A stretch of DNA of 64,000 bases, taken from NCBI GenBank assembly GCA_002707645.1, contig PANN01000007.1:14298-78297 (forward strand). Direction: 5' to 3'. This document shows positions 1-23,600 of this stretch, piece by piece (position 1 is the first letter of the stretch; each line of letters begins with the position of its first letter). Under the pieces are notes generated by a model. It worked only from the letters and a program-made list of their open reading frames with translations, was not told the DNA's origin and did no database searches. Source of the stretch: Fidelibacterota bacterium (lineage in GTDB: Bacteria > Fidelibacterota > Marinisomatia > SCGC-AAA003-L08 > D37C17). The position numbers and the translations under genes were made by a program.

Positions 1-96
1 AGTAATACTATTTGAGCCAATAAATGGATTTGATTGTTTATCGCAACTAAAAAATATTAACATTGGAACTAAAACTATATATCTTAAAATTTTCAT
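1..96 (-). CDS. Partial lipoprotein (5' end only, runs off the left edge)
   Basis: Reverse complement from ATG at 96 reads MKILRYIVLVPMLIFFSCDKQSNPFIGSNSIT..., a signal peptide with a lipobox-like FFSC. It starts 5 nt after the stop of the upstream ORF. Not in the ORF track because truncated. Confidence 0.6.
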   Translation of the reverse strand, partial: MKILRYIVLVPMLIFFSCDKQSNPFIGSNSIT

Positions 97-101
97 TTAT
101 A

Positions 102-1079
102 CTAAAATTCTCTCTTTTTTAAATAAATTATATATTCAAAAATTATTTTATCAAATGTTTTCAAATTATCTACCCAAGAATATTCAGAACTTGTTAATCT
201 TTTTCTATACTTTAAAAGAAACTTACTCCTATTTTCATTATCATGCAATAGGGTAAACCAAGCAGAAATTTGATAATCAATATGAGTTCTATGGAAGTGA
301 AGCTGATCTTGGATAATATTTGAACTATACTTTCTTGAATTTGAATTAAAAGAAAGTCCAATCTTATTAGCAAATAATTTACTCTCGTAATTAATAAAAT
401 AATTCAGCTCAGTATATCCTCTATCCATATAATCTGTAGAAATAGTGCTATCATTTTTTGTTATATTCTTAGCATCAAAAAATATAATAGAAAAATTATA
501 TTTATTAAGCTTATTTTTATTTGAATATTTAACTTTAAAACCGTTAATCTCTAAATCGAACTCTGTAAAATAAGGATTATAAAATTGAGTTTGGTATAAG
601 TAATAGTAATTTAATTTAGATTTTTTATTTTTAATTGGTTTTTCATAACCTAAAGAATATTTTGAAAAATCAAAATCACAGCCTGTTCCTTCGTATATAT
701 TATCTAAAATACCTTGATCAACATCTACATACTCCCTCAAATAAATATCATTAATATAACTGTATGAAAAGTCTAAAAATCTATAGTCACCAAGTGGTTG
801 TTTCAATTTAAATGATAAACTGTAATTTGATTTATCATCGTAATCTAAAAAATAGTTTTTTTTTATTGAAAGATTAAACTTTGTTGATCTTTCAAAAAAC
901 TGAAATTTTCTTGATAAAGACTTCTGATTACTAATGTATCTAGAAAACAGTATATCTTCGCTTTCAGAAGATTTAAGAACATTATTATCATAACCAAAAT
1001 GGTAACTACTTTTATATTCCCAAGAAAAAATTGGACATAAAAAAAGTAATGATATAAAAATTAAATAAATTTGTTGCAT
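102..1079 (-). CDS. Predicted exported protein, possible outer-membrane beta-barrel, in Pgs-like operon
   Basis: Signal peptide (MQQIYLIFISLLFLCPIFSW), many alternating aromatic/polar stretches, C-terminal Phe (…YLKKREF) typical of OM barrels. No recognised family. Confidence 0.5.
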   Translation of the reverse strand: MQQIYLIFISLLFLCPIFSWEYKSSYHFGYDNNVLKSSESEDILFSRYISNQKSLSRKFQFFERSTKFNLSIKKNYFLDYDDKSNYSLSFKLKQPLGDYRFLDFSYSYINDIYLREYVDVDQGILDNIYEGTGCDFDFSKYSLGYEKPIKNKKSKLNYYYLYQTQFYNPYFTEFDLEINGFKVKYSNKNKLNKYNFSIIFFDAKNITKNDSTISTDYMDRGYTELNYFINYESKLFANKIGLSFNSNSRKYSSNIIQDQLHFHRTHIDYQISAWFTLLHDNENRSKFLLKYRKRLTSSEYSWVDNLKTFDKIIFEYIIYLKKREF

Positions 1080-2002
1080 TATTTTGAAGTGATAGAATTT
1101 GTCTCTACTTTTACCAAAACATTACTTTTAGAACTTTTAATATTATCAATCAAGTAATAATTCAAACCATCTGGAACGTTAAAATACATGGTATTATACT
1201 TTGTTAGATTTTTTTTATTATTTTCTTCATCAAAATAATACGCATCTTTTTTTGATTTAATAATCTTATGGTTTTGCTTAGCCATAAACTTTCCATTTTC
1301 TTCAATTTTAAAACCATATAAATTATTATCAGAGTAAATATCATCACTTCTAGACATTATTTTTAAAACAGCTGGACCAACAGCTTTAAATTGGAATTCA
1401 CTATTCTTATTAACTTGATACCACTTCTTGGACTTAACAAGGGAAGAATCCCTTAAAAAATAAACAGTATTTGATTTAACTATATTAACTGGATCAATAT
1501 AGGAATCAAATTTTTCTTCTATAATCTCATTATAGACAATACGAACATCTACTTCAGGACTACCCTTAAGCGGTTTTATTAGTAATCTAGCTTTTGAAGA
1601 ACCTTCCATTTCTTCAAGCCAAAACCCTGCATTTGTATAAGAAAATCCTCTTTTATTAGGTACTTTAGATGGCGAAACTTTCTTCTTGAATTTTAATTCT
1701 TTGGTAGTAGTATCTTTTCCTTCAATAATATTTAAAATATAACCAAATGATTTACTCGAATTACTATTTTTAGAAATTTTTGTTCTAGTAATTATTTTAA
1801 CTGTATAATCTTTCTGCTTACTAAACACTTCGTTTAAGTTGGGATATTTTAAATAACTTTTTTTATCTAAGTGATAATAAGTTCTGGTTTTATTTTCATC
1901 CGATATTTTAACAATTTCTATATTTTTGCTATTAATTGGTTTAAGTGGTATGGAATAAGCAAATGTCACCAATAATAAAATTAATCTAAATAATTGAATC
2001 AA
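1079..2002 (-). CDS. Exported protein of unknown function in Pgs-like operon
   Basis: N-terminal signal peptide (MIQLFRLILLLVTFAYS); stop/start overlap with neighbours; no recognised family. Confidence 0.5.
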   Translation of the reverse strand: MIQLFRLILLLVTFAYSIPLKPINSKNIEIVKISDENKTRTYYHLDKKSYLKYPNLNEVFSKQKDYTVKIITRTKISKNSNSSKSFGYILNIIEGKDTTTKELKFKKKVSPSKVPNKRGFSYTNAGFWLEEMEGSSKARLLIKPLKGSPEVDVRIVYNEIIEEKFDSYIDPVNIVKSNTVYFLRDSSLVKSKKWYQVNKNSEFQFKAVGPAVLKIMSRSDDIYSDNNLYGFKIEENGKFMAKQNHKIIKSKKDAYYFDEENNKKNLTKYNTMYFNVPDGLNYYLIDNIKSSKSNVLVKVETNSITSK

Positions 2003-3143
2003 CTTCGTCCTCCTTCATTTTTTTTCGTATTTCATAATGGCTGTATAATCCTATAATTAATGACATAATAACTGAAGCAATTAAAGCAAACCACACTGTC
2101 TTTACGTTAAATTTTTCAATATCATAGTACAACTTACCTTCTTTGATTTTATTTGCATCAGAATCGAGCAGGTATTCTACACCATAATCTTTTAAAAGTG
2201 AATTAATATTTTTGATATTAATAACTGGAATGTTTTTATCTAAAAAATAATAGGATATTGATTTCTTAAAATCTTTATAAAATAATTCTGAATTTTCATT
2301 ATCAAAATAAATTTCAGAAGAATCATCTTTCAAGATCGGATTTATTATTCCTCCTTTGATATAACTCTTACCTTTTCCAGGTCCTAATGAGGATGCATTT
2401 CCTCCAATATTAATAAAAGCAGAATAATTCATTATTTCATCAAATAAATTAATTTTTTTTGAAATATTCTTATCTAAATTTGATTCATTAATAAATAAAA
2501 CATCACTTTCAGCAATAATCTCTTCAATTAATTCTATCCCATCATCAGATAAATTGTCACCTAAATCATTTTCTCCTCCAATAGAACAACCTATACTTTG
2601 ATAATTAAATATATCATTATCATTTAATTTTTTTTCAATTTCCAACCAAGAATAATTAATTGTATTTGCACCCCATGAAGATGAACCTAAAGAAGAAATA
2701 ATCACAGGGTTTAAACCAAGCGCCTTACATGCAGATAATACGGCTATATTTGCACCGGGAAAAGAACCTGTCATAGATACAGCTACAGAATCACCTTTTT
2801 CTAAATTAGACTCTTCTAATAAATCAATAATAAAAGCACTAAAATTAGGATTGGTTGTTGCTATTTTAGATTGTAAAATTAAACTATCTTTATACTGGAT
2901 TGTTGTTATATCAGAATTTGCATCACCTATTAAGCCAGTTTTATATATATCACTTGGTGAAATTGATTTATTTTTTTTAATTATATTTATTGATTCAACC
3001 ATTATATCAACAGCTAAATATTTTTTATGAATATTAAAGTTATTTATATATGTTTTTGAATTTGAAACCATATAGACTAAACATAAGCTAACAAAAGCTA
3101 GTGCAAATAATATTCTTGTTCTTTGTATTTGAGGTCTAAACAT
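1986..3143 (-). CDS. PgsW-like poly-gamma-glutamate system protein
   Basis: N-terminal TM segment, conserved-looking core (VSMTGSFPGANIAVLSACKALGLNPVIISSLGSSSWGAN), C-terminal TM; directly downstream of pgsC/pgsB-like genes. Confidence 0.75.
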   Translation of the reverse strand: MFRPQIQRTRILFALAFVSLCLVYMVSNSKTYINNFNIHKKYLAVDIMVESINIIKKNKSISPSDIYKTGLIGDANSDITTIQYKDSLILQSKIATTNPNFSAFIIDLLEESNLEKGDSVAVSMTGSFPGANIAVLSACKALGLNPVIISSLGSSSWGANTINYSWLEIEKKLNDNDIFNYQSIGCSIGGENDLGDNLSDDGIELIEEIIAESDVLFINESNLDKNISKKINLFDEIMNYSAFINIGGNASSLGPGKGKSYIKGGIINPILKDDSSEIYFDNENSELFYKDFKKSISYYFLDKNIPVINIKNINSLLKDYGVEYLLDSDANKIKEGKLYYDIEKFNVKTVWFALIASVIMSLIIGLYSHYEIRKKMKEDEVDSII

Positions 3144-3608
3144 TTAGATACTATATATAAAAATTAACATTAAAAAGAAATGAACTATGCTTGATTCTAT
3201 TACAACAACAGAGACAGTCCGAATAATACCCTGTTTATCCATCCATGAGGCTATTAGACCTGGTATAATAAAACCAATATATTCCATGTAGAGGAAGTCT
3301 CTAAAAAGAAGTCCTATTAAAAAAGCAATTAATAAGGATAAAATAACTCTTCTTCTTCCAAAAACTATTATATAGTTTGATAAGAACTTTACTATTAAAA
3401 AAGTTAAGACACCTATAGAGAATGTAATTGATACAGCGTAAAAGTCTTGTAAATGAAGGGCGAAATAACCGGGCACTATAAGCCCCCCTCCCATCACACC
3501 TAAGGTTTCGCTGAAAATTAATCCAACTAACATTCCTACCCCAATTGCTAAATAAACATACTGAGCATAAGGCAAGATAAAGCTATCTACTGGAAAAACA
3601 AAACTCAT
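3144..3608 (-). CDS. pgsC: Poly-gamma-glutamate biosynthesis protein PgsC/CapC
   Basis: 154-aa polytopic membrane protein with ETLGVMGGGLIVPGYFALHLQ motif; adjacent to pgsB with ATGA overlap. Confidence 0.85.
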   Translation of the reverse strand: MSFVFPVDSFILPYAQYVYLAIGVGMLVGLIFSETLGVMGGGLIVPGYFALHLQDFYAVSITFSIGVLTFLIVKFLSNYIIVFGRRRVILSLLIAFLIGLLFRDFLYMEYIGFIIPGLIASWMDKQGIIRTVSVVVIESSIVHFFLMLIFIYSI

Positions 3609-4759
3609 GATTTAAACTCTTTTAATTGATTTATAAACTCATCACCCCAGCCAACTATATTGCCAATTCCAACTATTGTAAACTGATTTAATTCTACTAT
3701 ATAATTTATAACATCATTTTGGTTTGATTTCATTGGAAATTTTTTAATTTTTATTTTATTATTATTTTTAGATAGCTCTAAATCAACATTATCTGCTCTT
3801 ATTATAAATAGATCAGGCTTAATTTTATTAAGCACTAAATCAATTAATTGAATTGTTCGATACCTTCTATCATTTCTACTATTTAAGAAGAAGCATGTCT
3901 TATTTTTCTCTTTTAACTTTATGAGTTTCCAGACTCTAAAAGTTGAATCTGGATCATTTGCAGCAAAAGCACTAATAAATTTATTTTTATTTTTCAGATT
4001 CCATATTAGTAATGCACCTGGATCAGGTATAGTTTTCAGCATTCCAGCTAATGCTTTTTCTCTTTTTACTCCTGCCTCCATACAAACAGATAGAGCTAAT
4101 TCAACATTCTCCGTATGTTCTAAGTATGGCATTTTTGTCATGTAGCTTGATTCAATACTAGACTCACTTGATTTAACTATTTTAGAATTTCTTTTAAGTG
4201 CGATTTTTTTTAAGAATTTTAAAGATAATTTTTCTGATGTGAATATTTTTGAATTAAATGGAATAGTATTAGATAAAGAATAAGCAATATCTCTAATTGT
4301 ATCTCCCATTTCATCAACATGATCTCTCCTTACATTTGTAATGACACTGATTGTGGACTTTACAATCTTATGCTCAGAAATCCATTGATACTGTGGATTT
4401 ACTGCCATACATTCAATAACCAATGCATCAGGATTTTTCTTACCAAAAAACCTAATCAATCTAATTTGCTCTCCAATAGTTGCTGACCTTAATCTGTGCA
4501 GTTCTAAATCTTTCCCTTTATCATTAATAATCCGAGGAATAGTACCTGTTGTTTTAGCAAACGTCTTTAAACCACCTTGTCTAAGTCCAGCAGCAATTAA
4601 CCTTACAACACTTGACTTGCCTCTAGTTCCATTTACATGAATTCTAATTGGTATCTTTTTTAGCGAAATTTTATGAACTCTAGATTCAGATACTCCAAAT
4701 ATAACAAGTATAAAAATTATACATATTAAAGCATTTATTGATATTAATGTTAATTCCAT
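3605..4759 (-). CDS. pgsB: Poly-gamma-glutamate synthase PgsB/CapB (Mur ligase-like)
   Basis: IRIHVNGTRGKSSVVRLIAAGLRQGGLKTFAKTTGTIPRII P-loop, ECMAVNPQYQW, ITNVRRDHVDEMG. Confidence 0.9.
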   Translation of the reverse strand: MELTLISINALICIIFILVIFGVSESRVHKISLKKIPIRIHVNGTRGKSSVVRLIAAGLRQGGLKTFAKTTGTIPRIINDKGKDLELHRLRSATIGEQIRLIRFFGKKNPDALVIECMAVNPQYQWISEHKIVKSTISVITNVRRDHVDEMGDTIRDIAYSLSNTIPFNSKIFTSEKLSLKFLKKIALKRNSKIVKSSESSIESSYMTKMPYLEHTENVELALSVCMEAGVKREKALAGMLKTIPDPGALLIWNLKNKNKFISAFAANDPDSTFRVWKLIKLKEKNKTCFFLNSRNDRRYRTIQLIDLVLNKIKPDLFIIRADNVDLELSKNNNKIKIKKFPMKSNQNDVINYIVELNQFTIVGIGNIVGWGDEFINQLKEFKS

Positions 4760-4778
4760 TTAAGGATAGAATATAATT

Positions 4779-7700
4779 TTACGAATTGAGAATAATATTT
4801 ATAATTATAATTACATCTAAGATGTTTACGTTTCCATTGCCGTCAACATCAGCAATATAAACACCCATTGAGTCTAATAGCTCTGCATTTATAATATGAT
4901 TAACTGTAACTATTACATCTAATACATTAATTTCTTCATCTTGGTTTGGATCACCTGGTAAAGTTTGTATTGGATTTCTTGTTGTTATGAATATTGCTGA
5001 CTCATCATTTAAGACCATTGAACTTTGTGGATATTGATTATTAAAAGTATACTGAAGACCGTCATTAGATAAATGATTTTCAATTCCCACAGTACAATAA
5101 GCACCATGTAAAGGAGTACCCCAGCCACCGTAACTACCAGTTGAAGTATTATTGAATTCTTTATATTGAATTTTGACCTCATTGTCTCCAGTTGGAGTCA
5201 AATAAGTTTCATCGTATAAAATAATCTGAAATGTCTCTATTGAATTATTATTATAAGTCCTCATTTCAGACCATTGTACAACTAAATAATGGTCACTTTC
5301 ATATTTATATATTTCAGCAGCAGAACTTGTTTTTAAATCATCCCAAAAAGCTGCAATCATAGGTGAAGGACCACCAGCTCCTGGGATAGGATAATTCCTG
5401 AATGAAGTAATATTTGATTCGCCAAATGTAATCCACCCATTTGTATTTACAGTAATTTTGCTATAAGATATTCCATAAAATTTAAAATTAAAGGGTAAAT
5501 CTAAAGTATAAGAACTGCTAGATATACCATTGCCATCTCCACTATCGCTCATTGGCAAAAGTGAACCTTGGCCTCCATAATCTTGATCGATTTCTATCCA
5601 ATCGTATATAGGACATAGATTATATCCCAAATCATTAGAATCATAAATGTAATAACCATGAAGATCAGGACCAAGAGGATCATTAACATTTGTTTCACCA
5701 ATATTTAATGGGAAAGATATTTCCTGATTATAACCACTTTCACTTACTATGCTTGCTTGAATGTTTACTATAGAACCATTAATTGTATTAGAATCAATTA
5801 AGACCCTAGCATTTAGACTATTACTAGGCTCAGAAACTTCACCTGCAATGATAGTATCATAATTAAGAATATTTTGGATAATATCTATTGAATAACCTGA
5901 ATGTAATAGATTCAATTGAACATTATCTAAATCTATACTACCAATATTCCTTAAATATATTTTTAAATCTGTCTCTAAACCAGGAGATAAATTATCATTA
6001 CCTATAATTTCGATGTTGTCAAAGACTATATGACTAGCATAAACATCCAAATTAACATTAGACTCCCAACTATTACCAGAACTATCAAATAAATTTAATC
6101 TTAATAATAAATCTTCATTATTAGTTATGTCACCTAGAAGCTCTAAAACAAAAGAGATACTTTCAATTTGGCCAGGATTAATTTGATTAACTGTATTTGA
6201 AATATCTGTTACAACTAATGAATTTGATTCAGATAATAAATTAGATTGCAAATCATAAATAATTTGTTCGCTGTAATTTACCAAGGGAATTGTAACAGAG
6301 ATAGTTTCACCAGGATTTAAGACCCCATCGTTATTACCACTAGTCATCTCACCAATCGAGTCATTAATAATAATATTCTCATAATCAACATTAACAGTAG
6401 CATTGCTGTAATCTTGGATAATAAAACTATTTTCAACAGGAATAAAGTTTTGTTTAACTGCTGTCACATATACTTCACCAAAACTATTGTAATCTAAATC
6501 AAAAGTTACAAAACCAGAGCTATCAGTATGTTTAGATACGAATATTTCATCGTTGTCTTTTAAAACTGTCACCAAAACATTATCAATCGGTAAACTATTA
6601 TCATCTGTTATATTAATTTCAATAAAATTAGTTCCAAATGGTATAGATTCATTATGAGTTACATTCATAGAATTTGGAGTATCTGTCCAAAGAAGTAAAG
6701 CGGGATCACCGATTAAATTATTCCAAAAAGAAAATATACTAACTCTATCGTTTGGGTTTTCCGGATATGTGCTTAATAAAGATAATTTTCCATTAGTAAC
6801 AACAGAACCAGCTAGCTTTAAGTTTTTGGCAAAGATACCATCATATATACCCATGCCAACTATGTTATTAAACATCGTATGCGTTCCTGTAGTCGCTGTT
6901 CCAATAGAGGCTACAGCACCCTTTGGGTTGCTTACCGAACCTGCTCTAAAAAATTCTTCACTTAATGAAGTCCCATTGTAATCTCCTGTACCACACGTTA
7001 AAAAGGTTGCAAAAGGTGTTTTATAATAATTATTAGCTGAATTAATATTTCCAGAGCCAAAACCACTGGAGCCATAATAACCTCTGTAATTCATATATAA
7101 ACATCCATCCTCTAATTCATTTTCCATCCAGCTAGAATAATTACCACTTCCATAATTCGTATTAATTTCATTAAAGCCATATTGACTCATCATGTTTTCT
7201 ATGTATTGATTTGTAATTATTGTTGATTGCCCAGAAGAACTAGGATCACCACATAAAGCAGCACGTTCGTACCAATCTGTTCCAACTTGTGATAAATAAG
7301 TTGCTTTTTCATATGCTATTGTTTTATTGATGACATTATTTAAATCACTGTTTGAATTAACTGAAATACGACCAATTATAATTTCTGGTAATAGATCTGT
7401 TCCGTCTAATTGAGTATATGGTAAATCTCCTGCCCCACTATAGCCTGACCAACTTTCTGTAAAATATCCGATACTATAGCTTCCACTTGTATCTCCAATT
7501 AAACCAACTATTTCTGGTGGATTTTCCCAGTTATCATAAGCATTTTGAATATAATTTTTAATATCTGATGAGCTAGATCCAATTTCATTTGTAGATATGG
7601 AATTGACTACATAGCCAGACTTATGTCTCCATTCTAGTAAATTTTGAACATAGGAATTATCAATAGAAGAACCTCCACAAATATATAATATTGAAGGAGA

Positions 7701-8297
7701 TTGATAATCCTCAGATCTATTACTAGTTTCATAATTAATAATTAGATTTTCATAAAAATCTTCGAATAATTTTGATTTTTTTAACTTTCTATTATCTCTA
7801 ATAACATCTGATTGATATTCGTCAATTAGAATATTAACATTATTTAAATATTCCAATTCTCCATTGGACAGATTAATTCTAAACGGATAATATGTTATCT
7901 GCTTAACAACTAGTCCTCTAAATATCATTTCTTCAGAAACTACTAAATTATTTTTGGGGAAATATTGACTATCTAATCCAGTATTTTGCACAATTTTACT
8001 CTTCATCGATTCATGTACAAAACTGTGAGGAGAAAAGTCTTCCAGTGAACTTGTAACGCTTATATCGAACCCATCTTTAATTTGATAAAAAGATGAATAG
8101 GAAGGCAATATAGTTTCATTAAATTCTAACTCACTTGAATTTAATTGCTTGTTGAAACTCTCAATTTTTTTAGATATATCAACCATATCAAGTTCAAAAA
8201 TGTTATTTTCTTCATCTAAAATATGAAAATTTGAACCTCCAATTACAAAAGTAAAAAAGGCTATTAAAATTATATATTTATTATAAGTGTTATTCAT
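4779..8297 (-). CDS. C25 (gingipain-like) cysteine peptidase family protein with Ig-like/NIDO-like regions and C-terminal dockerin-like repeats
   Basis: Propeptide-like N-terminus, LPEIIIGRISV, MNYRGYYGSSGF, FLTCGTGDYNGTSLSEEF, KGAVASIGTATTGTH; C-terminal GDPNQDEEINVLDVIVTVNHII / ADVDGNGNVNILDVIIIINIIL. Confidence 0.8.
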   Translation of the reverse strand: MNNTYNKYIILIAFFTFVIGGSNFHILDEENNIFELDMVDISKKIESFNKQLNSSELEFNETILPSYSSFYQIKDGFDISVTSSLEDFSPHSFVHESMKSKIVQNTGLDSQYFPKNNLVVSEEMIFRGLVVKQITYYPFRINLSNGELEYLNNVNILIDEYQSDVIRDNRKLKKSKLFEDFYENLIINYETSNRSEDYQSPSILYICGGSSIDNSYVQNLLEWRHKSGYVVNSISTNEIGSSSSDIKNYIQNAYDNWENPPEIVGLIGDTSGSYSIGYFTESWSGYSGAGDLPYTQLDGTDLLPEIIIGRISVNSNSDLNNVINKTIAYEKATYLSQVGTDWYERAALCGDPSSSGQSTIITNQYIENMMSQYGFNEINTNYGSGNYSSWMENELEDGCLYMNYRGYYGSSGFGSGNINSANNYYKTPFATFLTCGTGDYNGTSLSEEFFRAGSVSNPKGAVASIGTATTGTHTMFNNIVGMGIYDGIFAKNLKLAGSVVTNGKLSLLSTYPENPNDRVSIFSFWNNLIGDPALLLWTDTPNSMNVTHNESIPFGTNFIEINITDDNSLPIDNVLVTVLKDNDEIFVSKHTDSSGFVTFDLDYNSFGEVYVTAVKQNFIPVENSFIIQDYSNATVNVDYENIIINDSIGEMTSGNNDGVLNPGETISVTIPLVNYSEQIIYDLQSNLLSESNSLVVTDISNTVNQINPGQIESISFVLELLGDITNNEDLLLRLNLFDSSGNSWESNVNLDVYASHIVFDNIEIIGNDNLSPGLETDLKIYLRNIGSIDLDNVQLNLLHSGYSIDIIQNILNYDTIIAGEVSEPSNSLNARVLIDSNTINGSIVNIQASIVSESGYNQEISFPLNIGETNVNDPLGPDLHGYYIYDSNDLGYNLCPIYDWIEIDQDYGGQGSLLPMSDSGDGNGISSSSYTLDLPFNFKFYGISYSKITVNTNGWITFGESNITSFRNYPIPGAGGPSPMIAAFWDDLKTSSAAEIYKYESDHYLVVQWSEMRTYNNNSIETFQIILYDETYLTPTGDNEVKIQYKEFNNTSTGSYGGWGTPLHGAYCTVGIENHLSNDGLQYTFNNQYPQSSMVLNDESAIFITTRNPIQTLPGDPNQDEEINVLDVIVTVNHIINAELLDSMGVYIADVDGNGNVNILDVIIIINIILNS

Positions 8298-8644: not shown

Positions 8645-9085
8645 ATGATTAAGAATCTTAAACAAAGATTACAAGAGGGTTTTACCCTTGTTGAAATACT
8701 AATTGTTGTTGTAATTATAGGTATTTTAGCCGCAATAGCTATTCCTACATATTTTGATTATGTTGAGAGAGGATATGCTTCGGATGCAAAAGTTCAGATG
8801 AAAAATATATTAGAAAATTCAAAACTTTACTACGCAGAAAATGCAGAGTTTCCCGAAGATGTTGAAACTATGAATTCTGAAGGATATTCTAATGTTCCAA
8901 GATCCACGCTTGATAAATGGAGTTTTACTATTGATTTAAGTTATGATGATACTGAAGGCATAACAGGTCAATTGACTGCAGAAAGTACAGACAAAATGAA
9001 AGGTGGAGCGGGTCAGAGTATTATCTTTGAACTTAAAGATGGTAAATTTTATGGTTATGGTGCTGAAGAACAAGAGGGCAGCTAA
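8645..9085 (+). CDS. pilA: Type IV major pilin-like prepilin
   Basis: EG^FTLVEILIVVVIIGILAAIAIPTYFDY prepilin signal with Glu5; AGGAG RBS upstream of ATG. Confidence 0.85.
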   Translation: MIKNLKQRLQEGFTLVEILIVVVIIGILAAIAIPTYFDYVERGYASDAKVQMKNILENSKLYYAENAEFPEDVETMNSEGYSNVPRSTLDKWSFTIDLSYDDTEGITGQLTAESTDKMKGGAGQSIIFELKDGKFYGYGAEEQEGS

Positions 9086-9093
9086 ACTTTAAT

Positions 9094-10149
9094 ATGAGCC
9101 AAATAAACGAATTACTTGAATACTCCATGAAATCTGGAGCATCAGACCTTCATTTAAGTGTAGGTTCTATTCCTATGGTAAGAATTCATGGTATTATGAA
9201 TAAATTAAAACTTCCAAAAGTTGATATTGAAACTATGGAAGAGATTAAAAAAGATATCCTAAATGATAATCAGCAATCTATTTTTGAAGATAGACTTGAA
9301 ATTGATCTTTCTTATTCTTTGAAAGACTTGGGAAGATTTAGGGTTAATTTTTTCAAACAAATAAATGGACTTTCAGCTGTTTTTAGGACTATACCGTCAA
9401 TCATTAAAAGCAGTGAAGAATTAGGAATTGCACCTATTGTTAATCAATTATCAATGGAAGAAAAAGGACTAGTTTTACTCACTGGTCCAACTGGAAGTGG
9501 TAAATCAACTACTTTAGCAGCAATGATTGACCATATTAATGAAAATAAAGCTTGTCATATTATAACTATTGAAGATCCAGTTGAATATTTTCATTCATCT
9601 AAGACATCAATGATTAATCAAAGAGAACTCGGTCAATCAACTCATTCTTTTGCTAATGCTCTTAAGTCGGCATTACGTGAAGATCCTGATGTTATTTTGG
9701 TTGGAGAAATGAGAGATGTTGAAACCATTCAGTTAGCATTAACTGCTGCTGAAACTGGACATTTAGTTTTATCTACTCTTCATACATCCAGCGCAGTTAA
9801 AACAATTGATAGAATAATTGATGTTTTCCCATCAGGTAAAAAAGCACATATCCGTTCTATGCTTTCTGAAAGTTTACTGGCTGTAATTGCTCAAAAGCTA
9901 TTACAAACCAGAAGCCAAGATGGCAGGGTTCCTGCATGTGAAATAATGGTTGCGAACTCTGCTATTAGAAATTTAATTAGAGAAGATAAAATTTATCAAA
10001 TACCAACAATCATTCAAGCTGGTGCTCAAGAAGGCATGCATACCTTAGACCAAGATCTTCAAAGGTTAATCCAAAAAGGAAATATCGATAAAGATTCCGC
10101 TATTAAAATAGCAGACAATCCTGAGCTATTTGAAAAAGGAATTTTTTAA
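9094..10149 (+). CDS. pilT: Type IV pilus retraction ATPase PilT
   Basis: GASDLHLSVG, Walker A GPTGSGKSTTLAAMIDHIN, LREDPDVILVGEMRD, TGHLVLSTLHTSSA. Confidence 0.93.
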   Translation: MSQINELLEYSMKSGASDLHLSVGSIPMVRIHGIMNKLKLPKVDIETMEEIKKDILNDNQQSIFEDRLEIDLSYSLKDLGRFRVNFFKQINGLSAVFRTIPSIIKSSEELGIAPIVNQLSMEEKGLVLLTGPTGSGKSTTLAAMIDHINENKACHIITIEDPVEYFHSSKTSMINQRELGQSTHSFANALKSALREDPDVILVGEMRDVETIQLALTAAETGHLVLSTLHTSSAVKTIDRIIDVFPSGKKAHIRSMLSESLLAVIAQKLLQTRSQDGRVPACEIMVANSAIRNLIREDKIYQIPTIIQAGAQEGMHTLDQDLQRLIQKGNIDKDSAIKIADNPELFEKGIF

Positions 10150-10152
10150 TGT

Positions 10153-10608
10153 ATGGAAATTTACAAAAACACATATGGTTTTACTTTGATTGAGACTTTA
10201 ATAGGCATACTTATGACGACAGTAATATGTTCCACACTTTTTCTGGGAATAACTCAAGCTAAGCTTTATCTTGAAGCAATTAGAGTTAAAGAAAAAGCAT
10301 TCATTGAATTGAAAAATTTTACAAATGAATGGAAAAGCATGGTTGCTGCTGGTGTCAGTAATTTTCCATCAGATTCTAATTCAGGTGAAAAAGTTCCACT
10401 TAAAATTGATTCTAACGGTAATACTACTCTTGAAGGTAATTTATATAAAAAAATTACTAAGGCAACAAACTCAGGTCAATATTCTATTTATTATAATATT
10501 CAAACTTACATAACGTGGGATAAAAAAAATCTTTTCTTTAATAAAGAAAAAAGCTTGTTAGATACACTATCATTTAATACTTATCAGATACAGTTTAATA
10601 TACAATGA
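10153..10608 (+). CDS. Minor prepilin
   Basis: N-terminal YGFTLIETLIGILMTTVICS methylation motif; operon position. Confidence 0.75.
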   Translation: MEIYKNTYGFTLIETLIGILMTTVICSTLFLGITQAKLYLEAIRVKEKAFIELKNFTNEWKSMVAAGVSNFPSDSNSGEKVPLKIDSNGNTTLEGNLYKKITKATNSGQYSIYYNIQTYITWDKKNLFFNKEKSLLDTLSFNTYQIQFNIQ

Positions 10609-11216
10609 AATATAAATTTAATATAAATCAAGATGGTTTTACATTAATTGAGTCTCTTGTTAGTATGCTTATTGTCTCAACACTTTCATTTTCTATGTTT
10701 TTTGCGTTTTATCAAATACAAAAAAATTTAGTCAATGAAGACTATAAATCTGATATGCTTAATTATGGAAACAGAGTACTTGATGATATGGAAAATGAAA
10801 TAATGAAATCATATCAATTGATAAAAATAAATCAATCTCTAAGTAATACAACTATTGAATTGTACTATAAAAACACACAAATCAAGACCAAATATCTAGT
10901 TAGCCTAGAAAATGGTATCAAAAAAAATAATGGAACATCTAATAGATATACACCCATCGATATTTATATCCCAAAAGATGATGAAAACAGATACAAATAC
11001 AAGATTACCAACTTTGAGATATCTCAACCAACTCTCACAGCAGGAGATGTTTTTTCATATGAGGCAAACATGGCTCGCTATGCTTCGTACCAAATAAAAT
11101 TAGAGATTGATTTATATAACTATCCAAATGATAATGTTTTAGAAACTTTAGAATTCAATAGAAGAGTTTTTTCACCTGCAAAATATATTTATAATATTAA
11201 CACCAATAATGCTTAA
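10605..11216 (+). CDS. Minor prepilin
   Basis: N-terminal DGFTLIESLVSMLIVSTLSFS; ATGA overlap with upstream prepilin gene. Confidence 0.75.
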   Translation: MKYKFNINQDGFTLIESLVSMLIVSTLSFSMFFAFYQIQKNLVNEDYKSDMLNYGNRVLDDMENEIMKSYQLIKINQSLSNTTIELYYKNTQIKTKYLVSLENGIKKNNGTSNRYTPIDIYIPKDDENRYKYKITNFEISQPTLTAGDVFSYEANMARYASYQIKLEIDLYNYPNDNVLETLEFNRRVFSPAKYIYNINTNNA

Positions 11217-13293
11217 ACACTTAGAAAAATATCAGTCAGGAATTACATTGCCCATAACCATACTTTTTTTGTTTATAAGTTCTGGTATATTATTTTCATT
11301 TATATTAACAATATATGAAAAAGATTTTCAAGTTGAATATAAAATAGCTCAAACAAAAGCACTTTACAATGCTGAATCAGGCATAGCGCTAGGTGCTTAC
11401 TCAAATTTATATAAGAAGGACTATATTCCAGATGCTGCAACTGATTCATCAAGTTATATTTATATTGATGATATGGGATACTATTCTATTGGCTTATTTG
11501 AAGGTATAGACCCTGAACTTTACCAACCTATTAGAGGAGCAAATGCAACAGGGTATGCAAAAGTAAAACATGTTTTAGGTTTAAAAGAAATAGAAATTCA
11601 AAGACAAAAAGTTTTGAATTTAGGCAATACATCATCTTTATCCGATTATTTATGGCTAACAGATTCTGAATTAGCTGGAGGTGCGCCATGGTCCTTTGAT
11701 AATGGAACACCCTCTTTTAATACTAGGCGAGAAAACACATGGGGTTCGGGAGATCAATTAAATGCTAGTTGGGAGGGAGACCCAATATGTGATGTAGGAT
11801 TTAAAACAAATGGGACATTTGTTACTAGTCAATTTGGAACACCTAACTTTGATATAACTGTCAGCGTTGTTGAAGATGCTAATGGTGATGTCCATTATCC
11901 TGATATTCAATCTGGTAGCGCAACTCAGATATTCCAAGGTGAGCCTGCAATAGACACAGTAAAGACTACTTGTCTTCCTCCTCCTGGTTATGAAACAATG
12001 AAAAGAGTAATACAAAATAGCAATGAGCACTATACTTTTGATGCTACAAAAAAATTAAATTATAATTCAGCTACTGGTTCTAGGGATACTCTAATAATGA
12101 CAGATATAGAGTTTTTTGTAGAAAATGCAGTTCATGGATTTAGAGTCAAACAATTTTGGTTTTTAAAACCTCCATACTTTAAAGAGGATTACAATGTTGG
12201 ATATCCATATATGTTTAATCTTTTAATAGAAAACTTTTCTACAGACTGTCCAACTATTGGTGGTCAATATGATATAAGGACCTGTCCCAATTATATTGAA
12301 CAACTTGAAAATTTTCATAGTAAAACTATAAATATACTTACTGGCAATGATTCTTTTATAGCTCCAGATTATTGGGGAATAGTTTCTAGTACTCATGGTT
12401 TTCATCACTATGACTTTCCTTATGTATACAATACAAATGGAGAATGGATTTCTCAATTCGAAATAGATCAAGATCAACCATTTAATAGTCCAGATCAATT
12501 ACTACCTGAGTATATGTCAGGAGGTGGAGTTCAAACATACAACTATTCTCAGCCAACAGCTATCTATGTTAAAGGTGGACCAGTTAGAGTTCATGGAAGA
12601 TATAAAGGTAAATATACAGTAGTTACTGATGAATATACTCCTTATCATAGACACGCATGGCTTTCAACTATGGGAGCAACAAAAATTGATACGTTATGGA
12701 ATAATATTTGGATTACTGATGATTTGATTAATGACGATGCAACAAATGGAACATATAGCTTGTTTAATGCGCAACCGGATGCGGAATGTAATGATGGAAC
12801 AGAAAATAATTTAGGCTTAGTGTCTGGAGCAAATGTTTTTGTAGCAAATACTGAGAAAAATGGCGCTCAAGATGGTGGATATAATAATTGCAATGATAAT
12901 ATATGTGATGTTAATATTCATGCACATATTATTGCATTCAATGAATCTTTTGCTGTGCAGTATTGGCAAAATACATACAATTCAAACAACGGTTATTACT
13001 CAAAACCCCCATTTGGGGATGGTCAAGGAATTCAGATTTATGGAAATTCAGGCAACGACGATACTAGAGGAAAAGTCAATATGTGGGGTGGCGTTGTTCA
13101 AAAGTTTAGAGGATATATTGTTAGAAATAATCCTGGGCCATATAATCTGCCCCAGGGAAATATAGGATATGATGGTAAAGATTACAATTTTGATTGTAAT
13201 TTAAAGTGCTCCTTTCCACCATTATATCCTGAAAATACAACATGTGATGAGGGTGCAGATGAACTGCCTTGGAGCGTAACAGCATATTATTAG
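11209..13293 (+). CDS. Large PilX/GspK-like minor pilin, candidate pilus tip protein
   Basis: SGITLPITILFLFISSGILFSFILTIYEKDFQVEYKIAQTKALYNAESGIALG: prepilin-like helix lacking Glu5, followed by ~640-aa Cys-containing extracellular region. Confidence 0.6.
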   Translation: MLKHLEKYQSGITLPITILFLFISSGILFSFILTIYEKDFQVEYKIAQTKALYNAESGIALGAYSNLYKKDYIPDAATDSSSYIYIDDMGYYSIGLFEGIDPELYQPIRGANATGYAKVKHVLGLKEIEIQRQKVLNLGNTSSLSDYLWLTDSELAGGAPWSFDNGTPSFNTRRENTWGSGDQLNASWEGDPICDVGFKTNGTFVTSQFGTPNFDITVSVVEDANGDVHYPDIQSGSATQIFQGEPAIDTVKTTCLPPPGYETMKRVIQNSNEHYTFDATKKLNYNSATGSRDTLIMTDIEFFVENAVHGFRVKQFWFLKPPYFKEDYNVGYPYMFNLLIENFSTDCPTIGGQYDIRTCPNYIEQLENFHSKTINILTGNDSFIAPDYWGIVSSTHGFHHYDFPYVYNTNGEWISQFEIDQDQPFNSPDQLLPEYMSGGGVQTYNYSQPTAIYVKGGPVRVHGRYKGKYTVVTDEYTPYHRHAWLSTMGATKIDTLWNNIWITDDLINDDATNGTYSLFNAQPDAECNDGTENNLGLVSGANVFVANTEKNGAQDGGYNNCNDNICDVNIHAHIIAFNESFAVQYWQNTYNSNNGYYSKPPFGDGQGIQIYGNSGNDDTRGKVNMWGGVVQKFRGYIVRNNPGPYNLPQGNIGYDGKDYNFDCNLKCSFPPLYPENTTCDEGADELPWSVTAYY

Positions 13294-13302
13294 GATAAAA
13301 TT

Positions 13303-14343
13303 ATGAGTTTTGCATTAGATATAGGAAAATTTAGTATTAAAATGGCTGTGCTTGAACAGGTGGATGACATAGTTAAAATTGTAAATCTTGAAAAAATTAA
13401 TATTGTTGAAGATTTAGATACGTATGATATTGAAAAATTATCAAAATCTCAAATATCTGCATCAATCCAGGATTTATCTAACTCACTAAATATTAAATCA
13501 AAAAAAGTTAAAAATTTAATTAGTTCATTATCAGGCTCCGTTGTTGATACTAGGCAAGTGAGTATTTTAGATATGCCTGATAACGAATTATTGCAAGCAT
13601 TAGAACTTGAAGCGAAAAAACATGTACCACTGGATGGTACAGAAGCCATTATTGACTATCATCATATTGGTAAAGATCCACATGAACTAGATAAAATTAA
13701 TCTATTATTAACTACAACAACAAAAGATAAAATAAAGGATCATGCAGAAATTTTAAAAAACTCTGGATTTAAACCAGGAATTTTTGATACAGATCCAATT
13801 GCACTTTGTAATTTATTAAAATACTCCTACAATTTACCTGAAACTGGAGCAAATGTTATTTTAGATGTTGGACATTCATCAACCACTTTAGTTGTTTTTG
13901 GTAATAATACCACATATTTTTCCAGAGAAATTGAAATTGCTGGAAACCATATTAGTCAATCTCTTGTTAGAAATAATAAGATTAAATATGGCGAAGCTGA
14001 GCAAGAGAAACATAAAAAAGGTATAAATGTTTTTGATTCTGATACAGATAACAATGAAGAGACTATATCAGTAGAAAAAAGAACGATTTTAAATGATTTA
14101 GTAGATGAAATCAGAAAAACACTTAGATTTTATATGAAAAGTAATTCACAAGCCTTTTTTAATCAATTTTATTTATCAGGTGGTTGTTCAAAAATGCCTG
14201 GTTTTGATACATTTATTGCAGATAGTTTGAATGTTAAAGTTGAGTTTTTAAATCCTATGAATAAAATAGATTATGAAAAGAGTCTAGACAACCCAAGTGA
14301 GTATTCAATTGCAATAGGCCTAGCCTTAAGAGGTCTGTTATAA
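13303..14343 (+). CDS. pilM: Type IV pilus assembly protein PilM
   Basis: MSFALDIGKFSIKMAVLE, VILDVGHSSTTLVVF, FNQFYLSGGCSKMPGFDTFI (actin-like ATPase motifs). Confidence 0.88.
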   Translation: MSFALDIGKFSIKMAVLEQVDDIVKIVNLEKINIVEDLDTYDIEKLSKSQISASIQDLSNSLNIKSKKVKNLISSLSGSVVDTRQVSILDMPDNELLQALELEAKKHVPLDGTEAIIDYHHIGKDPHELDKINLLLTTTTKDKIKDHAEILKNSGFKPGIFDTDPIALCNLLKYSYNLPETGANVILDVGHSSTTLVVFGNNTTYFSREIEIAGNHISQSLVRNNKIKYGEAEQEKHKKGINVFDSDTDNNEETISVEKRTILNDLVDEIRKTLRFYMKSNSQAFFNQFYLSGGCSKMPGFDTFIADSLNVKVEFLNPMNKIDYEKSLDNPSEYSIAIGLALRGLL

Positions 14344-14344
14344 A

Positions 14345-14911
14345 ATGGATTTAATTAAAATAAATTTAAATCAAACTGTTAGTAAAGCTCAAAAAGACTT
14401 TATAGACCAAGAAAAGAAAAGATGGTACTTATTTACTTTTGTATGCGTTGTATTTGTATCTACTTTTATATGGCTATTTTTAATCAACTCTAGAATGCAA
14501 TACGTAATAGATGAAAGAAATAAAACTATAGAAAATATTTTATCTGATACTGCTAAACTTAAAAGTTCTGGACAAATCAATTTATCAAAAAAAGATATTG
14601 ATAATCTTTTCAAAGTCGAATCAAAAAGAATATTTTGGACTGAAAAACTTATTGCTCTATCAAAAATAACTCCAGATGACATGGCAATAACTAAAATAGA
14701 ATTTAAAAATAAAAAATTATACATATCTGCTATTTCTAATATAGGTTCTGGAGTTAAAGAATTTACTGTAGTAGAAAATTTTATGAAAAAAATAGATTTA
14801 AACAATGAGTTTAACAAAGATTTTAAAGATATCAAGTTTGATTTCCTTGATAAAGAAAAAACAAAGAACGATGAACTACTTACATTTAAAGTAGAGGCAA
14901 AACTAAGATGA
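14345..14911 (+). CDS. pilN: Type IV pilus assembly protein PilN
   Basis: MDLIKINLNQ start, single TM, position between pilM and pilO. Confidence 0.75.
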   Translation: MDLIKINLNQTVSKAQKDFIDQEKKRWYLFTFVCVVFVSTFIWLFLINSRMQYVIDERNKTIENILSDTAKLKSSGQINLSKKDIDNLFKVESKRIFWTEKLIALSKITPDDMAITKIEFKNKKLYISAISNIGSGVKEFTVVENFMKKIDLNNEFNKDFKDIKFDFLDKEKTKNDELLTFKVEAKLR

Positions 14912-15465
14912 TTTTAAAGAGAAGTATTATACTCATTGCAATATCAATCGTTTACTATTTATTTGGTTCACTGCTTTCAAATTATATGATTAAAAATAAA
15001 GAAGAAAAAATATTTTCACTGGAAGAAAAACAAAAAATTGTTAACGAACAATTTATAACAGCACAAATTTTATCTCAAAAACTAGACAACGTTTATACAG
15101 TATTTGAAGAAAACTTAGCAAATTCAATGAAAGATAATAAGAACAAAGAAGCTTCTATGGATTTCTTGAAATATCTTACAGATGTTATGGAAAAATATTC
15201 AATAAAATTAAATCAGATAATTCCTGATAAAAGGATTAAGAAAGGTTTACTAACAAATATTCCATATACAATTAGCTTTTCTTGTGATTATGAAAAATTT
15301 GGTCAATTTATCAATCAATTAGAAAGTGCAGATCGAATAATTTTAATAAAAGAAATTATTATGAAAAATAATATTGATAATATGAAAACTACCGATGAAG
15401 GTGGAGATATGGAAATTGAGATGGAAATTGTAACTATAACTATTAATAAATCAAAAAATATTTAG
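14908..15465 (+). CDS. pilO: Type IV pilus assembly protein PilO-like
   Basis: N-terminal TM then coiled coil and ferredoxin-like fold-sized domain; ATGA overlap with pilN; synteny. Confidence 0.7.
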   Translation: MILKRSIILIAISIVYYLFGSLLSNYMIKNKEEKIFSLEEKQKIVNEQFITAQILSQKLDNVYTVFEENLANSMKDNKNKEASMDFLKYLTDVMEKYSIKLNQIIPDKRIKKGLLTNIPYTISFSCDYEKFGQFINQLESADRIILIKEIIMKNNIDNMKTTDEGGDMEIEMEIVTITINKSKNI

Positions 15466-15466
15466 A

Positions 15467-15958
15467 ATGAATTTAAGAGAAAAATTTATTTGGAATATAT
15501 CGCTTACTATTGCTGCTTTAGTATCAATAATTAGTATATATAATTTCTTTCAAGTTGGATCAAATGCAAATGACTATTATGATAAGTTTATTAATGAAGA
15601 AGTGGGAACAGATAAAGAACTTGAGAAAAAAGTATCAGAATTAGAAAAAAATTATACATTTAGAGATAATTTAGCTTTTAATATCTTTAGCGATCCTGCT
15701 GATTTGAATAGAGTTGTCTCAATTGAGGGCTCTTCAAGAGGGAAAAAAAGGAAAAGTCTTTGGGTTTCAGGTATTATCAACAGAGGTGGTAAGGATAATA
15801 TTGCTATAATGAATTACAAAGAACAATCATTTAATGTTGTAAAAGGAGACTCTGTTGCGGGAGGTGTTATAATAGATATTTCTCCTACAGAAGTAACTTT
15901 CAATAAAAATGATAAAACAATTAAATATAACTTAAGTATAAAAAATACTTTAGATTAA
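15467..15958 (+). CDS. PilP/GspC-like inner-membrane to secretin linker
   Basis: Single TM plus C-terminal SFNVVKGDSVAGGVIIDISPTEVTFNKNDKTIKYNLS HR-like motif; between pilO and secretin gene. Confidence 0.65.
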   Translation: MNLREKFIWNISLTIAALVSIISIYNFFQVGSNANDYYDKFINEEVGTDKELEKKVSELEKNYTFRDNLAFNIFSDPADLNRVVSIEGSSRGKKRKSLWVSGIINRGGKDNIAIMNYKEQSFNVVKGDSVAGGVIIDISPTEVTFNKNDKTIKYNLSIKNTLD

Positions 15959-15974
15959 AAATTTGGAGATATTA

Positions 15975-17375
15975 ATGACTAAAATAAAAAAAATAACTGT
16001 ATTAACTATATTTATCTGTTCTGTATTATTTACACAAGAAAATAAGCTAGAAGATGATAGACCCTTAGTATCAATACATGCTGAAGATACTCACTTACCT
16101 TCCATACTTGCTATTTTAGCTGAAGAAAGTGGTTATAATATTGTTACTGGACCCAATGTTCAGTCAAAAAATAAACTAACTATTCATTTAGATGAAGTAC
16201 CAATAGATCAGGCAATAAATTTAGTTATTAGAGCTGCTGGATTAAGCTATGAAATAGTTGGTAATTCTATTTTAGTAGCCAATCAATCAAAAATAAATGA
16301 AGATGTTGGAGTTTCTCCTGCTGTAATTCCTTTACAGTATGCAAATGCTGAAGAAGTAGCTATTTTATTAAAAGATATAACTGAGAAAATTTCTATTGAT
16401 GCGACAGGAAACAAACTATTAGTAACAGCAAGTCCTAAAAAAATAGCAGAAGTACAAGCTATTGTAAAAGAAATAGATGTTCCCTCAATTCAAATTATGC
16501 TTGAGGCAAGATTAATTGAAGTTGCTTTAAATGAAACAGAAGAACTTGGAATAGATTGGGAGAGACTTGCCTCAACTACACTTATATTAGCTGAAACTGG
16601 AGAGCCTCAAAATATTACTGAGAGCCTAGTTACAGGCTCATATCTTCCTGGCTATGTCCCAGAAGTTGTAGCGGGTGCCGATGGTTCTGATGCTTTTGTT
16701 TTTGAACAAATTACAGGTACAGCAACTGGTGCAATTCCAGATCAAATGGCTTTTACTAGATCTGGCGGTGTAAACTCGTTTGGAAGACAACTTACAGCTT
16801 TTGATGTTACACTTGATATGCTACTTAAAGATAATAAAGCAAATATCCTGACCAATTCTCAAATAGTTACTGTTAATGGACATGAAGCTGAGATACAAAT
16901 GGTTGATGTAATACCTTATCTTGCATCAAACGGTGGGTTTGGGAATTCTAATTTTCAAGTATTAAAAGAAACTGTTGGAATTAAGTTGAAGATTTTACCT
17001 TATGTTAATACAGATGGTTATATAACAACTCAAATAACTCCAGAAGTAAGTTCAATTCAGTCCTGGACTGCCCAAGGATATCCTTGGACAAAAAAGAGGG
17101 AATCTACAACAACTGTAAGAGTTAAAGATGGTCAAACTATTGTAATTGCAGGTCTTATAACTACAGAATCAATAAATACTGATACAAAAGTACCTGTTTT
17201 ATGGAGAATTCCATGGGTTGGTAAAAAGTGGTTTACGCACACAGAGATGCAAGATAAAAAAACAGATTTAATTATTCAAGTTACTCCCTCTATAGTGAAA
17301 GATAATTATTCTGGTATTGAAAAACAAGATTATCATAAAAATGCTGAGGAAAAAGCATTTGAAGAAGAAAATTAA
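15975..17375 (+). CDS. pilQ: Secretin PilQ
   Basis: STN/N1-like N-terminus and secretin domain (IMLEARLIEVALNETEELGIDW … VRVKDGQTIVIAGLITTE … VPVLWRIPWVGKKWFTH). Start moved from TTG 15963 to ATG 15975 with GGAG upstream. Confidence 0.88.
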   Translation: MTKIKKITVLTIFICSVLFTQENKLEDDRPLVSIHAEDTHLPSILAILAEESGYNIVTGPNVQSKNKLTIHLDEVPIDQAINLVIRAAGLSYEIVGNSILVANQSKINEDVGVSPAVIPLQYANAEEVAILLKDITEKISIDATGNKLLVTASPKKIAEVQAIVKEIDVPSIQIMLEARLIEVALNETEELGIDWERLASTTLILAETGEPQNITESLVTGSYLPGYVPEVVAGADGSDAFVFEQITGTATGAIPDQMAFTRSGGVNSFGRQLTAFDVTLDMLLKDNKANILTNSQIVTVNGHEAEIQMVDVIPYLASNGGFGNSNFQVLKETVGIKLKILPYVNTDGYITTQITPEVSSIQSWTAQGYPWTKKRESTTTVRVKDGQTIVIAGLITTESINTDTKVPVLWRIPWVGKKWFTHTEMQDKKTDLIIQVTPSIVKDNYSGIEKQDYHKNAEEKAFEEEN

Positions 17376-17391
17376 TAAGGAGTTTATATTT

Positions 17392-21858: not shown

Positions 21859-21884
21859 ATTTTATACAAAGGAGATATATTTAT

Positions 21885-23600
21885 ATGGATAACTTTAACC
21901 CTCAATTTCAAAAAATAGGTGATATACTTGTTCATCAAAAAATTATTACATCTGAGCAACTTAGTAATGCTTTAACTGAACAAAAATCTACTAAAGATAA
22001 ACTTGGTAGTATTCTTATTTCTCAAGGAACAATCACAGAAGAAGAGCTAGTAAATGCTTACTCCATGCAATGCGGTCATCGTTCAATAACAAAAGATGAA
22101 ATGCTTAAAGTCGAACAATCCATAGTAGCTTTATTACCTGAAGATTTTGCTAAAGAAAACAACGTCCTTGCTCTTAGTAAAAAAGATAATTATCTAGCTA
22201 TAGCTATGGAAGATCCTGAAGATTTATCAACTCTAGATTCAATAAGAAAATTAACTAATTTAAGTCCAGAAATTTTAGTTGCAGGCAGAAGTTCAATTAA
22301 AGATGCTTTAGAAAGTTTATACGAAAAAGTAAAAAAAAGTGGAGAAGTTGAAAGTGCTATATCAAAAATCAGTATTGTTAGAGGGGATGAAGAAAATGAA
22401 GATGAACTAGATTTAGGATCTGAAAATGTTTCTGCTGAAGATGCTCCGTTTGTAAAATTAGTGAATCTAATGCTAACTGAAGCAATAAAAGAAGGTTCAA
22501 CAGATGTACATATAGAACCTGGAAGAGATAATGTAAATGTTAGAATAAGAATCGATGGAGTCCTAGTAACAATTATGTCTCCACCAATCAACTCTTTAAA
22601 TGGAATGGTTACAAGAATTAAAATACTATCTAAACTTAATATAGCTGAGCATAGATTACCTCAAGATGGAAGAATGAAAATCAAAACAGATTCAAAAGAA
22701 ATTGATGTAAGAGTATCAATTCTTCCAACTGTACATGGAGAAAAAGTTGTACTAAGATTACTTGGAAGTGGTGGAAAGACTTTAACACTTTCAAACTTAG
22801 GTTTTCCTGATGATAAATTAAAAGTATTTAGAAAATGGATTAATCAACCTTATGGAATGGTTATTATTTCTGGTCCTACTGGTAGTGGTAAATCAACGAC
22901 ACTTTATGCTTCATTAATGGAAATTCAAAGTGAAGGTATAAACATAACAACTGTAGAAGATCCAGTTGAATATCAAATTCCAGGTATAAATCAAGTTCAA
23001 ATGCATGATGATATTGGTTTAAATTTTTCAGCATCATTAAGATCTATACTTAGACAAGATCCTGATGTATTATTAATCGGAGAAATTCGTGACGAAGAAA
23101 CTGCAGATATTGCTGTTAAATTTGCTTTAACTGGACACTTAGTATTTTCAACTGTCCATGCTAATGATGCTCCATCTACAATTGCAAGATTATTAGATTT
23201 AGGCATCCCTCCATTTTTGCTCGGTTCATCTTTAAATTTAATAATGGCACAAAGACTAATTAGAACAATTGACGAAAATGAAAAAGAAGAATATACACCA
23301 AGTAAAAATGAGCTTGAAAGAATTGGTCTATTAAACGAGAAAAATTTAAAATATTTTAGAGGTAAACCAGCAACATCAAATCATAATTCAGGATATAAGG
23401 GAAGAACTGCTATCCATGAAATATTAGAAGTAACTACTGATGTAAGACAATTAATATATGACAATGCAAGTCAATTAGATATGAAAAAATTAGCTGTCAA
23501 AAATGGAATGACACCTTTAAGAGAAGCTGGTTTAAATAAAATAAGAAATGGCTCTACTACAATCGAAGAAATTTTAAGAGCAACAGTTGAGGAAAATTAG
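21885..23600 (+). CDS. pilB: Type IV pilus assembly ATPase PilB (GspE family)
   Basis: GSPII_E_N-like N-terminus, GPTGSGKSTTLYASLMEI, TTVEDPVEYQIPGINQVQ, LRQDPDVLLIGEIRDEETADIA. Confidence 0.93.
   Translation: MDNFNPQFQKIGDILVHQKIITSEQLSNALTEQKSTKDKLGSILISQGTITEEELVNAYSMQCGHRSITKDEMLKVEQSIVALLPEDFAKENNVLALSKKDNYLAIAMEDPEDLSTLDSIRKLTNLSPEILVAGRSSIKDALESLYEKVKKSGEVESAISKISIVRGDEENEDELDLGSENVSAEDAPFVKLVNLMLTEAIKEGSTDVHIEPGRDNVNVRIRIDGVLVTIMSPPINSLNGMVTRIKILSKLNIAEHRLPQDGRMKIKTDSKEIDVRVSILPTVHGEKVVLRLLGSGGKTLTLSNLGFPDDKLKVFRKWINQPYGMVIISGPTGSGKSTTLYASLMEIQSEGINITTVEDPVEYQIPGINQVQMHDDIGLNFSASLRSILRQDPDVLLIGEIRDEETADIAVKFALTGHLVFSTVHANDAPSTIARLLDLGIPPFLLGSSLNLIMAQRLIRTIDENEKEEYTPSKNELERIGLLNEKNLKYFRGKPATSNHNSGYKGRTAIHEILEVTTDVRQLIYDNASQLDMKKLAVKNGMTPLREAGLNKIRNGSTTIEEILRATVEEN

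Follow-up and report, generated by a model that had tools for sequence, protein, structure and literature searches.

Poly-gamma-glutamate operons and the present locus

Fusobacterium nucleatum is reviewed as a Gram-negative producer of poly-gamma-glutamate (PGA) (PMC3815933), CapB and CapC are treated as mandatory in a capsule survey (PMC5542703), and Cloacimonadota, a related phylum, are reported to have CapB/CapC homologues and PGA genes (PMC8542988, PMC13082233) and a probable PGA matrix stained with 4',6-diamidino-2-phenylindole (DAPI) (PMC13082233). The PgsBCA operons studied in Gram-positives leave the exit of PGA from two-membrane cells unexplained. The locus described here is a pgsB-pgsC-pgsW operon of seven genes on the minus strand at positions 1-8297 of a 64,000-nucleotide (nt) stretch (hereafter the window; G000:C15:14298-78297, contig PANN01000007.1), taken from a 1.2 Mb, 79% complete genome of the phylum Neomarinimicrobiota/Marinimicrobia (SAR406, Fidelibacterota).

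We consider it probable, with some reserve, that this locus is a trans-envelope PGA-type capsule or matrix operon of diderms of the Fibrobacteres-Chlorobi-Bacteroidetes (FCB) group, the polymer being exported through the product of the sixth gene, P325. The locus names candidates for PGA exit, P307 in the periplasm and P325 as the outer-membrane channel, both linked to the synthase in several phyla. As far as its text was available to us, the open-access literature yielded no description of an outer-membrane partner or export module for PGA; the accessible parts of the two Cloacimonadota papers deal with CapBC(A), and an export unit of PgsW, P307 and P325 does not appear in them. In order of transcription, as read from the list of open reading frames (ORFs), the genes are:

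4779..8297, minus strand: C25a, exported gingipain-like protein of 1172 amino acids (aa), matching PF01364 (177 bits), NIDO and Dockerin_1
3605..4759, minus strand: pgsB (384 aa), gamma-glutamyl ligase, Mur-ligase/FolC-like (TIGR04012, PF08245)
3144..3608, minus strand: pgsC (154 aa), membrane partner of PgsB (TIGR04011, PF14102)
1986..3143, minus strand: pgsW (385 aa), poly-gamma-glutamate system protein (TIGR04332)
1079..2002, minus strand: P307 (307 aa), exported basic protein with a predicted tandem beta-sandwich and a TTG start (AlphaFold2, Foldseek)
102..1079, minus strand: P325 (325 aa), signal peptide and predicted 14-strand outer-membrane beta-barrel (AlphaFold2, Foldseek)
1..96, minus strand: 5' end of a lipoprotein gene (578 aa in full by reading of the flank), which runs on to the left of the window

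The genes lie nose to tail, and the initial annotation, which had been made from the sequence of the window, placed all seven ORFs correctly, together with the 4 nt ATGA overlap of pgsB and pgsC and the 17 nt overlap of pgsW and P307; the gap between C25a and pgsB, given there as 20 nt, measured 19 nt. The gap between pgsC and pgsW is 0 nt, P307 and P325 overlap by 1 nt, and the lipoprotein ATG (position 96) follows P325 after 5 nt. The TTG start of P307 is credible because an AAGGAGG ribosome-binding site lies 6 nt before it.

The PgsB-PgsC-PgsW core and its conserved neighborhood

The ORFs of 384, 154 and 385 aa had been proposed to encode PgsB, PgsC and PgsW, and all three scored above the curated NCBIfam cut-offs: PgsB at 387 bits (TIGR04012, cut-off 222.7) with the P-loop GTRGKSS, PgsC at 105.9 bits (TIGR04011, cut-off 96.45) adjoining pgsB, and PgsW at 242 bits (TIGR04332, cut-off 100) adjoining pgsC. 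PgsW carries a hydrophobic stretch at both ends and the domain between them is presumed periplasmic; a profile search against the PDB found nothing significant, PADLOC and the PHROGs gave no match, and a search of the literature by the name PgsW found no relevant paper. An enlarged PgsW of 456 aa was seen in one genus (g6; L041:8632-10002, L042:3401-4771), in which P307 is absent between pgsW and P325.

Related loci were collected by scanning contigs with a profile of the PgsW alignment and taking the best 80 matches, so that looser relatives are under-sampled. Loci were obtained from Neomarinimicrobiota/Marinimicrobia and also from Bacteroidota, an Ignavibacteriaceae metagenome-assembled genome (MAG), Cloacimonadota and Electryonea. 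The order pgsB-pgsC-pgsW-P307-P325-lipoprotein recurs across the phylum, in Bacteroidota and in Ignavibacteria, and in Cloacimonadota and Electryoneota it recurs without the lipoprotein gene. Relative to PgsW in the 41 Neomarinimicrobiota loci, PgsC was found at -1 and PgsB at -2 in 39 each, P307 at +1 in 35/41, P325 at +2 in 34/39, the lipoprotein at +3 in 31/37 and C25 at -3 in 26/37. The 19 loci of other phyla gave PgsC at -1 in 18/19, PgsB at -2 in 17/18, P307 at +1 in 17/19, P325 at +2 in 17/18, the lipoprotein at +3 in 11/16 and C25 at -3 in 15/16. P307 and P325 in these other phyla were recognized by models built from Neomarinimicrobiota alone (E values of 1e-17 to 1e-55), and their positions are therefore an independent test. 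The association of P307, P325 and the lipoprotein with pgsBC that had been anticipated was found both within and outside the phylum. In five phyla P325 adjoins the synthase and is co-directional with it, while its identity drops to about 20-30% across phyla.

Among 199 genomes of the phylum, PgsW was detected in 76 and P325 in 74; both were present in 72, PgsW only in 4, P325 only in 2 and neither in 121. The neighbor was lost at a contig end in four of the exceptions (G029, G091, G148 and G158), and the other two (G049 and G074) have their PgsBCW in another type of locus. In a tree of PgsW, 19 of the 21 sampled Neomarinimicrobiota sequences formed one group (support 99/95) and the other two were of this second locus type, a topology that fits mainly vertical descent.

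The second type, PgsBCW without adjoining P307 or P325, was found in G069 and G049 (L072:2660-11830 and L202:6601-14177) and was assigned by its layout in G074 (L053:5709-11012). In L072 the gene order is gamma-glutamyltranspeptidase, AstE/AspA-like, gamma-glutamyltranspeptidase, Asp/Glu racemase family, pgsB, pgsC, pgsW and an N-formylglutamate-amidohydrolase-like (FGase-like) protein, the last with a type IX tail. The presence of gamma-glutamyl enzymes around the trio supports a gamma-glutamyl chemistry for PgsBCW. Because P307 and P325 are missing from this locus type, not every PgsBCW requires them, and the type is a natural negative for the two proteins.

PgsA/CapA (PF09587) had been reported as missing, which is correct for the operon, including its left flank, by Pfam search of the encoded proteins. 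It does not extend to the genome, in which a 723-aa protein that has a CapA domain (PF09587) and ends in a dockerin is encoded unlinked to, and far from, pgsBC (L200:622-2793; G000:C19). Versions of this protein of about 1590 aa occur in many relatives. No PF09587 match above the cut-off was found in 37/76 genomes with PgsW, and the module is therefore independent of the CapA-domain protein.

P307, P325 and the co-directional exported proteins

The structure of P325 was predicted by AlphaFold2 (36 orthologues) as a signal helix followed by 14 strands, with a predicted local distance difference test score (pLDDT) of 90.7 and a predicted template modeling score (pTM) of 0.85. The closest PDB folds by Foldseek were the 14-strand porins OmpG (template modeling scores (TM) of 0.61/0.73) and CymA. 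In the model P325 has the marks of an outer-membrane beta-barrel, namely a signal peptide, an even number of amphipathic strands and an aromatic residue near the C-terminus, and the C-termini of its orthologues are F/Y-rich. At positions assigned to the lumen by strand parity, rather than by a pore model and with no control porin set alongside, basic residues averaged 20.7 and acidic ones 10.9, for a net charge of +9.8 (range 1 to 16); at lipid-facing positions the means were 7.1 basic and 5.3 acidic. Three lumen-facing residues, R115, R249 and R294, are either strictly conserved or basic in every member.

P307 was modeled (pLDDT 87.9) as a signal helix and two beta-sandwich parts, and its isoelectric point is about 9 or more, mostly 9-10, in 30/33 members. 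With low TM, Foldseek matched P307 to tandems of CBM51/CBM22 and to the crown of BcsB from cellulose secretion, which on the predicted model is likeness of a tandem jelly roll and not homology; other beta-sandwich matches (TM about 0.25) were set aside as generic jelly-roll similarity. No significant PDB match to P307 was returned by a profile search. By these sequence searches P307 and P325 are two undescribed protein families: neither matches a Pfam, NCBIfam or PHROG family or an entry in PADLOC, and Pfam searches of the 33 P307 and 36 P325 orthologues gave only scattered matches in one or two members. The structure predictions thus agree with the earlier proposals of a barrel for the 325-aa protein and a periplasmic location for the 307-aa protein.

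Left of the window the operon goes on with the lipoprotein, a 990-aa exported protein, an M14 carboxypeptidase (742 aa) and a second C25 protein (943 aa). The assignment of C25a to the C25 family was upheld by its PF01364 match. The protein comprises a propeptide, the C25 fold, Ig and NIDO domains and a C-terminal dockerin. When C25a was aligned with RgpB the catalytic Cys was found to be kept, and NYTGHG reads NYRGY, so that the canonical catalytic His is replaced; in the readable part of the orthologue set the residue after NYRG is Y, W, F or E. Since this His is replaced, the C25 proteins of the module are, judged from alignment, probably not ordinary peptidases. C25 proteins with the catalytic Cys but not the His (NYRGY/NYRGW) occur in Neomarinimicrobiota and Bacteroidota alike (window 4779-8297; L002:4621-7452). 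The C25a of the window gave no match to the PorU model NF033707 in NCBIfam, and two relatives scored 33.8 and 92.4 bits (the latter from Bacteroidota) against a cut-off of 420; identity of C25a with the type IX sortase PorU was ruled out by this cut-off and by the missing His.

The 990-aa protein ends in a dockerin, the second C25 has NIDO and a dockerin, and M14 ends in dockerin-like repeats with no Pfam dockerin call. M14 aligns with carboxypeptidase T at the zinc and catalytic residues, and these are kept. Lipoprotein orthologues are LVIVD beta-propellers (PF08309 in a Bacteroidota orthologue, subthreshold in L087). Type IX sorting tails terminate the orthologues of the 990-aa protein and M14 in some genera, and dockerins take that place in the species of the window. 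In the Cloacimonadota loci (L148 and L153) M14 and C25 genes lie upstream of pgsB rather than downstream, joined in L153 by a relative of the 990-aa protein. SprA is encoded in the host genome. In the same genome there are 45 dockerin_1, 12 type IX sorting-tail and at most 2 cohesin matches (weak); a dockerin and a sorting tail are combined in some ORFs, and between orthologues the two are interchanged. Here the function of dockerins may differ from cohesin binding.

Beyond the second C25 lie Lrp, glnA and an SLC13-type transporter, named from sequence only. The divergent right neighbor of the operon is a type IV pilus cluster (window 8645-24841; pilin, PilT-like, PilM, PilN, PilO, secretin, PilB and PilC), and in other families the C25 gene is immediately preceded by co-directional genes for GspE, GspF and prepilin peptidase (L087).

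Interpretation and comparison with described systems

The diderm version of the operon suggested in the initial annotation is supported by the tests above. Sequence and models give the enzyme families, the linkage, the predicted folds and the charge; from these we infer as follows what the polymer consists of, the direction and each step of its transport, the contacts between components and what the exported proteins do. PgsB, a cytoplasmic ligase, and PgsC, in the inner membrane, would polymerize glutamate via gamma-amide bonds, and PgsW, anchored in the inner membrane, would present the chain in the periplasm. Basic P307 would guide the polyanion across the periplasm, P325, with conserved arginines in its lumen, would let it out, and the lipoprotein and the co-directional C25-like, 990-aa and M14 proteins would work on or in the surface polymer. 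This reading is favored by the scores of PgsB, PgsC and PgsW, the tight packing of the operon, the retention of order and co-occurrence, the confidently predicted barrel with a basic lumen and the basic, weakly BcsB-like P307. A further argument is that Cloacimonadota, in which a probable PGA matrix is reported (PMC13082233), carry the P307/P325 module (L148, L153).

Several points weigh against this reading. PgsW lacks a solved relative by profile search and its role is a proposal, genus g6 does without P307 between pgsW and P325, and the second PgsBCW locus type does without both P307 and P325. The lumen charge of P325 rests on strand parity, and 14-strand porin-like barrels can serve other solutes. 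For Neomarinimicrobiota the polymer is a prediction. The genomes are MAGs sharing descent and the co-occurrence counts are not independent; because of this relatedness, a Fisher value computed from them is no true probability, and more weight attaches to gene order that is kept between distant sequences.

The resemblance of P325 to the uptake porins OmpG and CymA and the retained active-site residues of M14 would also suit a different product, in which PgsBCW makes a gamma-glutamyl compound other than a secreted homopolymer (such as a short tail added to a lipid or to an acceptor in the periplasm) and P325 acts as a common porin or takes up breakdown products. We regard this as unlikely, as P325 keeps its place next to a co-directional synthase in five phyla and the module has no conserved inner-membrane gene dedicated to uptake. 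It is rather unlikely that the chain, though made and brought to the surface, serves mainly for display, with C25-like, 990-aa and M14 proteins anchored on it in place of the anionic lipopolysaccharide (A-LPS) of type IX secretion and with P325, P307 and the lipoprotein building the anchor. Exported proteins with type IX tails or dockerins do share the operon in several phyla, SprA is encoded in the genome, and C25 is the fold of the sortase PorU, to whose model the Bacteroidota C25a scores 92.4 bits; however, that score is far under the cut-off, the catalytic His is gone in the readable members, and we know of no direct link by which proteins are anchored to PGA. Chance linkage of P307, P325 and the lipoprotein as unrelated envelope genes is very improbable: clusters may persist through descent alone, but the order is kept over five phyla at low P325 identity, and PgsW and P325 occur together in 72 of the 78 genomes having either.

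With export of a PGA-type polymer through P325 as the preferred reading, a more speculative extension, which we hold to be quite doubtful, is that the FCB chain made by PgsBCW-P307-P325 is a surface scaffold displaying type IX or dockerin-tailed proteins, with the His-less C25 as a polymer-binding or transfer factor and an anchoring parallel to A-LPS. If the preferred reading is true, SAR406, an abundant uncultured ocean lineage among the hosts of the module, and related diderms would have a dedicated polymer route across both membranes. The locus suggests that polyglutamate may be widespread on FCB bacterial surfaces, and P307 and P325 as candidates make the export question testable.

In outline the proposed route is like exopolysaccharide export (cellulose Bcs, alginate Alg and Pga), with an inner-membrane synthase, a periplasmic guide and an outer-membrane barrel, and P307 weakly matches the fold of BcsB. 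Exopolysaccharide export systems have barrels of 16-18 strands and a periplasmic TPR protein. The present operon is not a member of that group: its polymer would be a gamma-peptide, its synthase is Mur-ligase-related, its predicted barrel has 14 strands, and the TPR protein family had no match among the operon proteins. With type IX secretion (PorU/gingipain) the operon shares the C25 fold, the type IX tails on orthologues of its exported proteins and the SprA of the host genome, whereas its C25a does not reach the cut-off for PorU and is without the canonical His, and the tails in the species of the window are dockerins. With the PgsBCA/CapBCA(E) operons of Bacillus and Fusobacterium nucleatum it shares equivalogs of PgsB and PgsC that are ordered alike and coupled by ATGA; unlike in those operons, PgsW replaces PgsA, and P307, the predicted barrel, the lipoprotein and the C25 and M14 proteins are added.

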